NCBI GenBank assembly: GCA_004366385.1
Contig: SIRU01000032.1
Span: forward strand, 1 to 52,383
From: Actinomycetota bacterium
GTDB taxonomy: Bacteria; Actinomycetota; Thermoleophilia; Gaiellales; Gaiellaceae
DNA length: 52,383 nt
Direction of reading: 5' to 3'
Made by a program: the position numbers and the translations under genes. The notes beneath the pieces are model-generated. The model had not been told where the DNA came from. It made no database searches and worked only from the letters and a program-made list of their open reading frames with translations. The first letter of the stretch is position 1. The number at the start of each line of letters is the position of its first letter. Positions 3,937-52,198 of this stretch are shown one piece after another.

Positions 3937-6576
3937 TCAGGCGGCGGCGTGCTGCTCCGCCGCGCGCGGCAGGCGGCGGGAGACGACCTGCGAGACGCCG
4001 TCCGGCCCCATCGTCACGCCGTAGAGCACGTCGGCCGCCTCCATCGTCCGTTTCTGGTGCGTGACGACGACGAACTGTGCGCGGTCGGAGTAGCGCCGCA
4101 GCAGCTCGACGAAACGCGCGATGTTCGTGTCGTCGAGCGCGGCCTCGACCTCGTCGAGGAGGTAGAACGCGCACGGGCGCGCCAGGAAGAGCGCGAACAG
4201 GAACGAGATCGCGCCGAGCGCCTTCTCGCCGCCGGAGAGCAGCGACAGCCGCGTGATCCGCTTGCCGGCGGGCCGCAGCTCGACCTCGACGCCGGGCTCG
4301 CCCTCGTCGTCCTCGGACTCGACCAGGCGAAGGCGGCCCTCGCCGCCGGGGAAGAGCGTGGTCGCCACCTCGGCGAAGTGCTCGGCCACCGCCGAGAAGG
4401 TCTCCTCGAAGCGCCGCTCGACGGTCTCGGTGAGCTCGGCGCGCAGCCTCTCGAGCTCCCCGAGGCTGCGCTCGAGATCCTCGCGCTGCACCTGGAGATC
4501 CGTGAGCCGCTCCTTCTCCGTCTCGTACTCCTCGCGGGCCAGCGGGTTCACCTGCCCGAGCGTCGCGCGCCGCGTCTCGAGCCGCTCTGCCCGCCCCGCG
4601 AGCCCGTCGCGGTCGTCGCCCTCGGCGGGCTCGGCGCCCGCGGCCTCGAGGCGGCGGCGTGCGTCCCCGGCCTCGGCCTCGATCCGCGCGAGCTCGATCT
4701 CGGCGGCGGTCACGCGCTCGGACGCCTCGTCGAGCTCGCTTCGGAGCGCGACCTCGGCCGCGCCCAGCCGGCGCAGCTCCTCGCCGAGATCCTTGGACTG
4801 GAGCGCGCCCGCGTCGACTCGCGCGCGCAGAGGCGCGTCGAAGCGGCCGGCGGCGGCCTGCGCGGCGGCGAGCTCGTCCGTCAGCGTGCGCGACGCCGTC
4901 GCGATGCGGGAGAGGAGCTCGCGGTCGAGCGGCACCGCACGCGGGACGCTCCCGTACTCGGCGGCGGCCAGGCGGGCCGCATCCGCGGTCACGTCGGCCT
5001 CGCGGGCGGCCTCGGCGGCCGTGCGCTCCAGGTCCGCGGCTTCGGCGGCCACCTCGCGCCGCCGCGCCTCGAGCCCGAGCATGACCGCCTCCGCCGTCTC
5101 GCCGGCGAACCAGAGCTCGCGCCTCGCAGGGTCGTAGCCAAAGCCCTCCTTCGTCACCGACGGCACGGTCACGTCCAGGAGCTCCTCGCGGGAGACGACG
5201 GGGAGCTCGCCGACGAGCGCCTGCGGGTCTCCGCCCGCGAGGACGGTGAGGCTGCCGAGGCCCTCCGAGCGCGCTCGCTCGAGCAGCTCGAGTGCCGAGC
5301 GCGGGTCGTCCGCGAGCACCGCGGAGGCGCGACCGCGCAGCGCGGCGGCGACCGCACGCTCCGAGCCGGGCTCCACGTCGAGGGCGCCGAGCGCGAGCCG
5401 CGCGCCGCCCTCCGCGAGCGCCCGGGCGGCGGGCGGCAGGCCTTCCTGCTCCGCGAGCACGCGCTCGACCGAGCGCAGCCGCTCTCCGGCGAGCCGGGCC
5501 TGTTCGGCCAGAGCGTCCCGCTCGGCGGCGGCCCGGCGCGCCGCGGCCGCCGTCTCGATCGCCTCCCGCTCGAGCCGCGCCAGATCCCCCGGCTCGCCGG
5601 CGGCGGGCTGGAGCACCGCGAGCTCGGCCTCGAGCCGGTCGCGCAGGGCCGTGGCCGACTCGGCCCGGAGCGCGAGCCGCTCGCTGCCGCCCTGGAGCCG
5701 GTAGAGGGCGGCGACCGCGGCCTCCCGCTTCCCGGCCGCGTCCGAGAGCTCGTCCTCCGCCCGCGCGCGGTCGGCGAGCAGGGCTTCCAGCCTCGACTGC
5801 GCACCGCGTCGCGCGAGCGCGGCCGCGTCGCGCCGCTCCTCGACCTCCGCGCCCTTGCGCTCGCCCTCGCCGAGGTCGAGCTGCGCGATCCGCGCGTGCA
5901 GCGACGCGATCTCGCCGGCGAGCTTCTCCGCCCTCTCGGCCGCCGTCGCCTGGAGCGCGAGCGGCCGCAGGCGCTTCTTGACCTCGGCCTCGACGTCGCG
6001 CGCCCGCTCGACCTGGGTCGCGACGCGCGCGAGCTTGAGCTCCGCACGATGCCGGCGCCGCTTGAACTTCCCGAGCCCGGCGGCCTCCTCCACGAGCGCG
6101 CGCCGGTCTTCCGGCTTCGACGCGAGCACCGCCTCGACCTTGCCCTGGCCGACGATCGAGTGCATCGCGGAGCCGAGCCCGACGTCCGCGAGCAGCTCGA
6201 CGAGGTCGGTCCGGCGCACCGCCGCGCGGTTGACGAGGTACTGGCCCTCCGCACCGCGCACGAGCCGCCGCGCGATCGAGACCTCGCTGAAGTCGAGCTC
6301 CGGCCAGGCGCCGTCCTCGTTGTCGAAGACGAGCTCGACCTCGCAGTGCTGCGACGGCTTGCGGTCGCCTCCGCCGGCGAAGAGGACGTCGTCGGGCTTC
6401 TCCGCGCGCAGCTCGGACGGGGTCAGCGAGCCGGACGCCCACACGACCGCGTCGGCGATGTTCGACTTGCCGGACCCGTTCGGGCCGACGACGACCGCGA
6501 CCCCCCGCTCGAGCGCGATCTCGAGCGGGTCTGGGAACGACTTGAAGCCCCGGATGCGGATCGTCTTCAGGTGCAC
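3937..6576 (-). CDS. smc: chromosome segregation ATPase SMC, with short arms
   Basis: Core subunit of the SMC-ScpAB condensin, which extrudes DNA loops and helps sister chromosomes separate. Seen: N-terminal head with Walker A GPNGSGKSN (31-39) and Q-loop region; coiled coil about 180-378; hinge about 380-505; coiled coil about 505-720; C-terminal head with signature LSGGEKALGAI (778-790), Walker B FYLLDEVEAALDD (804-816) and switch His in VVTHQKRTM. The conserved NPLAREEYE is at 677-685. All ATPase parts are intact, yet the length is 879 residues against roughly 1,150-1,200 for most bacterial SMCs; the loss is in the arms. GTG start. Partners scpA and scpB are at the far right of the window. 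Confidence 0.97.
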   Translation of the reverse strand: MHLKTIRIRGFKSFPDPLEIALERGVAVVVGPNGSGKSNIADAVVWASGSLTPSELRAEKPDDVLFAGGGDRKPSQHCEVELVFDNEDGAWPELDFSEVSIARRLVRGAEGQYLVNRAAVRRTDLVELLADVGLGSAMHSIVGQGKVEAVLASKPEDRRALVEEAAGLGKFKRRRHRAELKLARVATQVERARDVEAEVKKRLRPLALQATAAERAEKLAGEIASLHARIAQLDLGEGERKGAEVEERRDAAALARRGAQSRLEALLADRARAEDELSDAAGKREAAVAALYRLQGGSERLALRAESATALRDRLEAELAVLQPAAGEPGDLARLEREAIETAAAARRAAAERDALAEQARLAGERLRSVERVLAEQEGLPPAARALAEGGARLALGALDVEPGSERAVAAALRGRASAVLADDPRSALELLERARSEGLGSLTVLAGGDPQALVGELPVVSREELLDVTVPSVTKEGFGYDPARRELWFAGETAEAVMLGLEARRREVAAEAADLERTAAEAAREADVTADAARLAAAEYGSVPRAVPLDRELLSRIATASRTLTDELAAAQAAAGRFDAPLRARVDAGALQSKDLGEELRRLGAAEVALRSELDEASERVTAAEIELARIEAEAGDARRRLEAAGAEPAEGDDRDGLAGRAERLETRRATLGQVNPLAREEYETEKERLTDLQVQREDLERSLGELERLRAELTETVERRFEETFSAVAEHFAEVATTLFPGGEGRLRLVESEDDEGEPGVEVELRPAGKRITRLSLLSGGEKALGAISFLFALFLARPCAFYLLDEVEAALDDTNIARFVELLRRYSDRAQFVVVTHQKRTMEAADVLYGVTMGPDGVSQVVSRRLPRAAEQHAAA

Positions 6577-50481: not shown

Positions 50482-50841
50482 ATGGGAACGTTCCAGGTGA
50501 CGATCGGCGTCGGTAACCAGACGCGCGAGCGCTTCGAGGAAGTCGAAGCGCTGGTCGACACCGGGGCGACCCACACGGTGCTTCCCCGGTCGCTCCTCTC
50601 GGAGCTGGGCATCGTCCCGCACACGCGAGCGCCGTTCGTGATCGCTGACGGCAGCCAGATCGAGCTCGAGATCGGCCGGGCCTGGGTTCGCATCGACGGG
50701 CAGGAGGAGCTCTCACTCGTCGTCTTCGGCGACACGGCGTTGCTCGGTGCCGTGACGCTCGAGGAGCTCCGGCTTGCTCCCGATCCCGTCTCGCAACGAC
50801 TGGTGCCCGTCCCCGCGCTGCTGATGCGCGTCGCCGCCTAA
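50482..50841 (+). CDS. small retropepsin-like aspartic protease (clan AA)
   Basis: 119 residues. The catalytic motif is LVDTGATHTVLP near residue 25, with a second hydrophobic-hydrophobic-Gly segment (AFLLGAVTLEEL-like, LLGAVTLEELRL) that would form the flap-side psi loop. Such single-domain proteins act as dimers. ATG with AAGGAG eight bases upstream. No signal peptide. It is 54 bases after the M29 aminopeptidase, so a shared peptide-turnover role is possible but unproven. Confidence 0.85.
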   Translation: MGTFQVTIGVGNQTRERFEEVEALVDTGATHTVLPRSLLSELGIVPHTRAPFVIADGSQIELEIGRAWVRIDGQEELSLVVFGDTALLGAVTLEELRLAPDPVSQRLVPVPALLMRVAA

Positions 50842-50855
50842 GGCGAGCCTGGCCG

Positions 50856-51458
50856 CTACGAGGCGCGGCTCTCGGCGACCTCGAGCAGCCGCGTGCGAAG
50901 CTCGGTCGCGTCCTCGCCGAGGTCGTCGAGTCGCGGCAGCGCCGCGAGCGACTCGAGGCCGAACACGCGCTCGAAGAGCGGCGTCGTCTTGTAGCGCACC
51001 GCGCCGCCCGGGCCGCTCTCGCGCCCGGCCTCCGAGATCAGCCCGCGCTCGACGAGGCTCGCGACGGCCGAGTCGGCCGCGACGCCGCGGATCCGCGCGA
51101 CCTCCGGCCGCGAGCACGGCCCGAGGTACGCGACGATCGCGAGGGTCTCCAGCGCCGCCGGGGACAGCCCGCGCTCGACCGGCCGCTCGAAGAGCCGCGA
51201 GCACGCGTCCGCCGCCTCACGGCTCGCGCGGAACGCGTAGCCGCCCGCGACCTCCTCGAGCACGATCCCGCTCCGAGGCTCGGAGAAACGCTCGCGCACG
51301 AGCCCGAGCGCCGTCTCGACGCGCTCCGGGTCGTCGTCCGCCGCCTCCGCGAGCTCCGCCACGGTCAGCGGCGCCGAGGCAACGACGAGCAGCGCCTCGA
51401 CCGTCCGGGCGAGCTTGTCGACGGGGTTGGCGGCGATCAGGCGGAGCGTCGAGTCCAC
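50856..51458 (-). CDS. scpB: segregation and condensation protein B
   Basis: 200 residues from the GTG at 51458, which has AAAGGA eight bases upstream. Tandem winged helices: VDKLARTVEALLVVASAPLTVAELAEA and LSPAALETLAIVAYLGPCSRPEVARIRGV, the second being the ScpB signature. It binds ScpA to bridge SMC heads. The start lies 22 bases inside scpA, so the two are coupled. It partners the short-armed SMC at 3.9-6.6 kb. Confidence 0.95.
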   Translation of the reverse strand: MDSTLRLIAANPVDKLARTVEALLVVASAPLTVAELAEAADDDPERVETALGLVRERFSEPRSGIVLEEVAGGYAFRASREAADACSRLFERPVERGLSPAALETLAIVAYLGPCSRPEVARIRGVAADSAVASLVERGLISEAGRESGPGGAVRYKTTPLFERVFGLESLAALPRLDDLGEDATELRTRLLEVAESRAS

Positions 51459-52198
51459 GTGTCGATCCTTTCTACGTCGGCCTTCGTGATCCTTATCGGG
51501 GCGAAGGGAGCGGCCTGGCTGATGGCCACCTCCCCCGCTTTGCGCAGCTCGAGCAGCGCGAGGAACGCGACCGCCTGCTCGACCCGCGAGAGCCCGTGCA
51601 CCTCGCTGTCGAAGTCGAAGCGCCGCCGCCGCGAGAGCAGCGCGCGGAACCGCTCGAGGAACTGGGCGACGGGCGGGAAGCGCAGCGCCATGTGGTTCAG
51701 GGAGACGCTCGGCGGCGGGGTCGCGAGCAGGCGGAGCGCGGCGCCGAGCGCTTCGGGGTCCTGCGGCGCGAGCCTCCGCTCCGGCTGCGGCGCGAGCGGG
51801 GCCGGGCCGAGCCGGAAGAAGCGGTCGCGCTCCGAGACGAGCCGCTCGGCGAGCCACGCGGCCGCCTCCTTCATGCGCCGGTACTCGGCGAGGCGCCGCG
51901 CAAGCTCCTCCGCGGCCTCCTCCGGCTCGAGCGCGTCCAGCTCCGCCGCCTCGTCGGGGAAGAGCGCGCGCGCCTTCAGCTCGAGGAGCGCGGAGATGAG
52001 GACGAGGAACTCGCCGCAGGCGTCCAGGTCGACCTCGTCGCGCTCGGCGAGCACCTCCAGGAACGCGAGCACCACTCCCGCGAGATCGACGTCGCGCGGC
52101 TCGAGGTCCTCGGAGAGGAGGAGCGTCAGGAGGAGGTCGAACGGGCCCTCGAACGCGTCGAGGTCGAGCGCGAGCTCCCGCACGGGCGTCGCAGGCAC
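51437..52198 (-). CDS. scpA: segregation and condensation protein A (kleisin)
   Basis: 253 residues with FEGPFDLLLTLLLSEDLEPRDVDLAGV at the N-terminus (SMC neck-binding), EFLVLISALLELKARALFP, and a C-terminal winged helix (SRVEQAVAFLALLELRKAGEVAISQAAPFAPI) that binds the SMC cap. GTG start. Only nine bases separate it from the gene at the window edge. Confidence 0.96.
   Translation of the reverse strand: MPATPVRELALDLDAFEGPFDLLLTLLLSEDLEPRDVDLAGVVLAFLEVLAERDEVDLDACGEFLVLISALLELKARALFPDEAAELDALEPEEAAEELARRLAEYRRMKEAAAWLAERLVSERDRFFRLGPAPLAPQPERRLAPQDPEALGAALRLLATPPPSVSLNHMALRFPPVAQFLERFRALLSRRRRFDFDSEVHGLSRVEQAVAFLALLELRKAGEVAISQAAPFAPIRITKADVERIDTWTRRSA

Follow-up and report, generated by a model that had tools for sequence, protein, structure and literature searches.

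Prokaryotic Smc arms cluster at natural lengths of 238, 341 and 515 amino acids, with minor modes at 163 and 423, and in Bacillus subtilis, whose own Smc arm measures 344, arms of 253–267 and of 321 and up are functional (Buermann et al. 2017, PMC5344682). SMC heads with the hinge lost have been described in oceanic Actinobacteria from marine gene-catalogue sequences (2025, PMC12153180). Short natural arms and hinge-less actinobacterial SMCs are already in print in these two sources, and a search of one open-licence collection found no paper on nested arm duplication or on the SMC of Thermoleophilia or Gaiellales.

Here we describe an SMC in which both arms are short and the hinge is reduced, encoded in a window of 52,383 nucleotides (the whole stretch of DNA analysed). 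Its parts and its partners are as follows.

3937–6576 (−): smc, single-copy bacterial SMC (open frame, SMC_prok_B score, genome search)
6091–6576 (−): N-terminal head, residues 1–162, with Walker A at 31–38 (solved-head matches, motifs)
5443–6090 (−): N arm, residues 163–378 (anchor alignment, AF2 model)
5443–5814 (−): N-arm module, residues 255–378, one copy here and two in long relatives (module HMMs)
5584–5613 (−): break in the N arm, residues 322–331 (AF2 secondary structure)
5101–5442 (−): reduced hinge, residues 379–492 (Pfam match, alignment, custom hinge HMM)
4414–5100 (−): C arm, residues 493–721 (anchor alignment, AF2 model)
4924–4950 (−): break in the C arm, residues 543–551 (AF2 secondary structure)
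4612–5094 (−): C-arm module, residues 495–655, one copy here and two in long relatives (module HMMs)
3937–4413 (−): C-terminal head, residues 722–879, with signature and Walker B (solved-head matches, motifs)
51437–52198 (−): scpA, kleisin partner (PF02616)
50856–51458 (−): scpB, kleisin partner, start placed by eye at GTG (PF04079)

A probable Smc-ScpAB system

The smc gene is a single open frame with a GTG start, which bears out the length of 879 residues first reported for its product, and is flanked by an rnc-like and an ftsY-like gene (both named by eye). The protein scores 626.3 bits against TIGR02168 SMC_prok_B, passing the equivalog cut-off of 567.35, and is the sole full SMC match in its own genome. 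Solved head structures of bacterial Smc proteins match both heads (best E 3.8e-102), and the split ABC head carries Walker A GPNGSGKS, signature LLSGGEK (779–785) and Walker B FYLLDE (804–809); all three are largely invariant among relatives, in agreement with the initial annotation, which had called the heads intact.

The kleisin genes that had been placed at 50.9–52.2 kb are indeed there, at the opposite end of the contig from smc. Of 34 genomes, 32 gave a ScpA match (all but G069 and G016); ScpB turned up in all 30 and the ParB family in all 20. A parB is present as well. Beside scpB, a small open reading frame (50482–50841, +) carries a DTGA motif and looks by eye like a retropepsin-like aspartic protease. 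Most likely, the cell has no bacterial condensin ATPase besides the window SMC, which would serve as the Smc of Smc-ScpAB and has one arm module where the sister genus has two. It would act as a ParB-loaded Smc-ScpAB motor whose rod is about 30 nm rather than 47 nm, with dimer contact through the remaining hinge and arm–arm contact.

All eight complete SMCs from its own genus are 879–890 aa long (11 genomes searched; in the others, two SMCs are cut by contig ends and one genome gave no smc match), and one of them sits on a single 2.62-Mb contig. An assembly or local deletion artefact in the window genome therefore has next to no probability; the initial annotation had named full-length relatives beside a deletion here as evidence against a natural short-arm variant, and the congeners, short throughout, speak for that variant. 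The SMC of G005 (L014:487-4125:-) was counted as 885 aa after trimming; there, smc and ftsY share one 1,213-aa open frame, which may reflect an SMC–FtsY fusion or the loss of a stop codon. An SMC in decay or under relaxed constraint, in cells where chromosome packing had become less important and the arms and hinge eroded without selection, would fit the wide variation in arm and hinge length, the shrinking hinges and an arm dN above that of the heads, but it is improbable given that dN stays below dS in all five smc regions (0.05–0.31 against 0.40–1.04 over heads, arms and hinge, comparing the window with six congeners). The heads are also highly conserved, frames remain open in all complete relatives, and ScpA, ScpB and ParB are all kept. 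Judged by these substitution rates, the window smc is under purifying selection.

Arms that differ by whole modules

Arms were measured between the conserved anchors EEAAG, GLPPAAR, ELWFAG and RFEETF in 45 aligned SMCs, with an uncertainty of perhaps ten residues for each value owing to anchor choice and non-coil breaks. The window SMC has arms of 216 (N) and 230 (C) residues, mean 223, compared with 340 and 367 (mean 353.5) between the same anchors in a Bacillus-type SMC from Metabacillus (1,188 aa); its arms reach about two thirds of normal length. These values are close to the coils of about 200 and 215 residues estimated earlier, and the matching lengths of the two arms uphold the earlier claim of a nearly equal loss on both sides of the hinge. 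The overall deficit, put at about 300 residues, comes to about 309, of which about 260 fall in the arms and about 50 in the hinge. In an AF2 model of moderate confidence (mean pLDDT 76.9, pTM 0.46), the arms are long helices. Setting the Metabacillus mean of 353.5 against the 344 published for B. subtilis places the published scale about 9.5 lower, assuming that the two Bacillus-type proteins are equal; on that scale the window mean is about 213, or roughly 30 nm if 344 residues span 47 nm.

Arm length varies widely among the relatives in family f1. This family is presumably Gaiellaceae, since its family-specific modules also occur in Candidatus Gaiellasilicea maunaloa (L081). Its SMCs range from 716 to 1,184 aa, with mean arms of about 172, 194–204, 219–232 or 342–361 residues; in three further families of the order, mean arms measure 354–392. 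Profile HMMs built from N and C arm segments of the short proteins give two contiguous matches in each arm in all ten long-armed SMCs of the family and one per arm in the other 29 of the 39 complete proteins (in L020 the single C copy is split over two matches, and L079 and L073 are the same contig). Among 116 other SMCs, none has a double match: 113 have no match and three have one C match. Long proteins are arranged as N1-N2-hinge-C1-C2, an order that lengthens the two strands of the antiparallel arm in step; compared with the window genus, the sister genus has about 122 more residues in its N arm and about 142 more in its C arm. The long arms of the family would derive from a single nested duplication, in which a hairpin segment of about 120 residues on the N side and about 140 on the C side was copied, and the window genus would be short by having lost the inner copy or by never having received it.

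In most long arms the two halves are more alike than heptad-preserving shuffles would be, and more clearly so in the C arm than in the N arm. Half-against-half Smith–Waterman alignment gave z scores of 1.4 to 10.8 (N) and 3.2 to 10.8 (C) in nine long proteins of the family, against −0.8 to 1.9 in nine long SMCs from other families of the order, and module duplication was not seen in three long SMCs of family f8 (−0.2 to 1.5). Self-BLAST of the long proteins showed no repeat, we think because BLAST purges matches inside the full self-match.

A reduced hinge, and relatives with none detected

The initial annotation also called the hinge intact, and here it is not borne out. Pfam SMC_hinge (PF06470) matches only residues 399–448, over profile positions 12–61 of 116, at 22.9 bits (cut-off 22.5), and a custom HMM built from 33 hinges matches over positions 25–76 of 155 at 20.4 bits, where the Metabacillus hinge scores 185.2. 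Aligned to a canonical hinge, the first subdomain and the end of the second are present; about half of the Pfam profile is matched and about 50 residues are missing. When the whole AF2 model was compared with known structures, the top matches covered heads and arms, and the hinge was not among them. The overall interpretation stands for natural short arms and matched loss and falls for the hinge, and the short form is one state within a variable family.

All Thermoleophilia hinges examined score at most 42 bits with the custom HMM, against 142 to 185 in four proteins of other groups (Corynebacterium gave 50 bits and a Coriobacteriia MAG 59). Because these hinges score far below canonical ones, the reduction in the window SMC is one of a divergent starting hinge. 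The hinge stretch spans 109–113 residues in the window genus and many relatives, 131–145 in others and 56–58 in four proteins of 716–722 aa; hinge length shrinks across the presumed Gaiellaceae (143, 113 and 57 residues).

Family f8 emerged from a class-wide Thermoleophilia sample (SMC match in 59 of 61 genomes), and a scan of the family itself matched 39 of 41 genomes. The loci fetched comprise 25 complete SMCs of 777–820 aa and three of 1,072–1,086 aa from other genera. The Pfam hinge is absent from all four short f8 SMCs and both Gaiellaceae SMCs of 716–718 aa that were scanned, and the custom HMM gives at most 0.7 bits in the five short f8 SMCs tested; the three long f8 proteins carry a stretch that aligns as a hinge. 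The two f8 and two Gaiellaceae proteins scanned against SMC_prok_B still pass its cut-off. The short f8 loci (L158-L161, L178-L202 and L092; 777–820 aa, no detectable hinge where tested) keep ScpA and ScpB. In the one AF2 model made, of the G099 SMC (mean pLDDT 72.5), the tip is all-helical and residues 143–612 are free of strands. In L178, the conserved residues 381–400 lie close to the tip and may provide a contact in place of the hinge. Two smc stretches contain one TAG within the match: in G128 C1 (L179) a 786-aa frame is nonetheless complete, and in G146 C202 (L205) the frame is broken.

Other unusual arms turned up beside these. A 977-aa SMC from an uncultured Bacilli MAG (L083:1238-4168:+), with mean arms of about 251 and a full hinge (155.9 bits), is a further, independent example of short arms and lies close to the reported mode of 238. 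Two f10 proteins, one from a Thermoleophilaceae MAG and three long f8 proteins (L163, L164, L085, L208-L210) have mean arms of 288–294 by our anchors, or about 279–284 on the published scale, so these six fall between the published modes and inside the length range that is non-functional in B. subtilis.

Evolutionary history and known systems

On the tree of heads, long proteins stand beside short ones: G071 with G052 and G042 (UFBoot 99), G053 with G069 (100) and the long sister genus, g23, with the short window genus (100). Monophyly of the long proteins by their heads is rejected (p-AU about 1e-56, cost 185 log units). Separate duplications in each lineage are likewise rejected (p-AU 0.0012, cost 65 log units). 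The inner module copies form one clade under a midpoint root (UFBoot 93 for whole modules, 94 for head-side halves), and the module of the window genus groups with the outer copy of its sister genus (UFBoot 97); the tree of hinge-side halves, from which 4 of 45 proteins were dropped for too few letters, gave no resolution. These trees favour one nested duplication followed by repeated loss or transfer, and we read them as pointing to a single duplication and then about four losses on the head tree, the window genus being one of them.

That the repeat is mere coiled-coil likeness is very improbable: four of the nine long proteins do have weak scores for the N halves (L062 at 1.4; L041, L064 and L065 at 2.5–2.6), but the half-against-half null was built from heptad-preserving shuffles, and the module HMMs match exactly twice per arm in every long protein of the family and never twice in the 116 other SMCs, whose arms are similar. 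Horizontal transfer is a more serious contender, if still somewhat unlikely. The family would have begun short-armed; after a single duplication of the module, recombination would have carried the inner cassette into a few genera, and the window genus would never have had it. Three basal lineages of the family are short-armed on the head tree, as this account would have it, and the hinge tree (built without the four proteins of 716–722 aa) conflicts in places with the head tree, as recombination would give. In that hinge tree the forms with short hinges fall into one group (UFBoot 83 including G059, 92 without), and the conflict concerns G059 and G073, as either parallel loss or recombination of the hinges could give. 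For the long proteins of G071 and G053, however, the hinges group with those of short relatives that are near them by heads too, as vertical descent predicts. Support is weak at the deep nodes of the family (UFBoot 63 and 64), so loss and transfer are not firmly separable.

The reasons for the length of SMC arms and the purpose of the hinge are still debated in the study of loop extrusion. Here, proteins that share about 70% identity in their N heads can be set apart by a single matched module in each arm, and these close relatives provide natural pairs for arm-length tests, and the half-hinge and hinge-less relatives offer the same comparison for the hinge. On the published scale, Thermoleophilia arms measure about 162, 185–194, 210–222, 279–284, 315 and 333–351 residues, including values that are non-functional in B. 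subtilis. We tentatively propose, as a possibility short of an even chance, that SMC arms need not follow the published periodic length rule and that the hinge is dispensable: Gaiellaceae arms would change by whole nested hairpin modules on both sides, and the hinge would have been cut back step by step until two lineages lacked it, so that other contacts would have to hold the two arms together.

Among known systems, Rad50/SbcC is likewise a coiled-coil ATPase with weak similarity in the head, but the window SMC lacks a CxxC zinc hook at the arm tip (its only cysteines are Cys78 and Cys802). It agrees with the B. subtilis type of Smc-ScpAB in head sequence and motifs, in its ScpA, ScpB and ParB partners and in the SMC_prok_B equivalog, and differs in arms about 130 residues shorter each and a hinge with about 50 fewer residues. 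Short arms are shared with the engineered mini-Smc proteins and natural modes of PMC5344682, whereas the window SMC, near 213 on that scale, lies off the modes and outside the functional B. subtilis lengths; the part of that paper available to us mentions neither the lineage nor module duplication. Compared with the hinge-less marine sequences, as far as the available part of PMC12153180 describes them, the present cases come from two Thermoleophilia lineages, in genome context and with ScpA and ScpB, and they include intermediate half-hinges, that of the window SMC among them.
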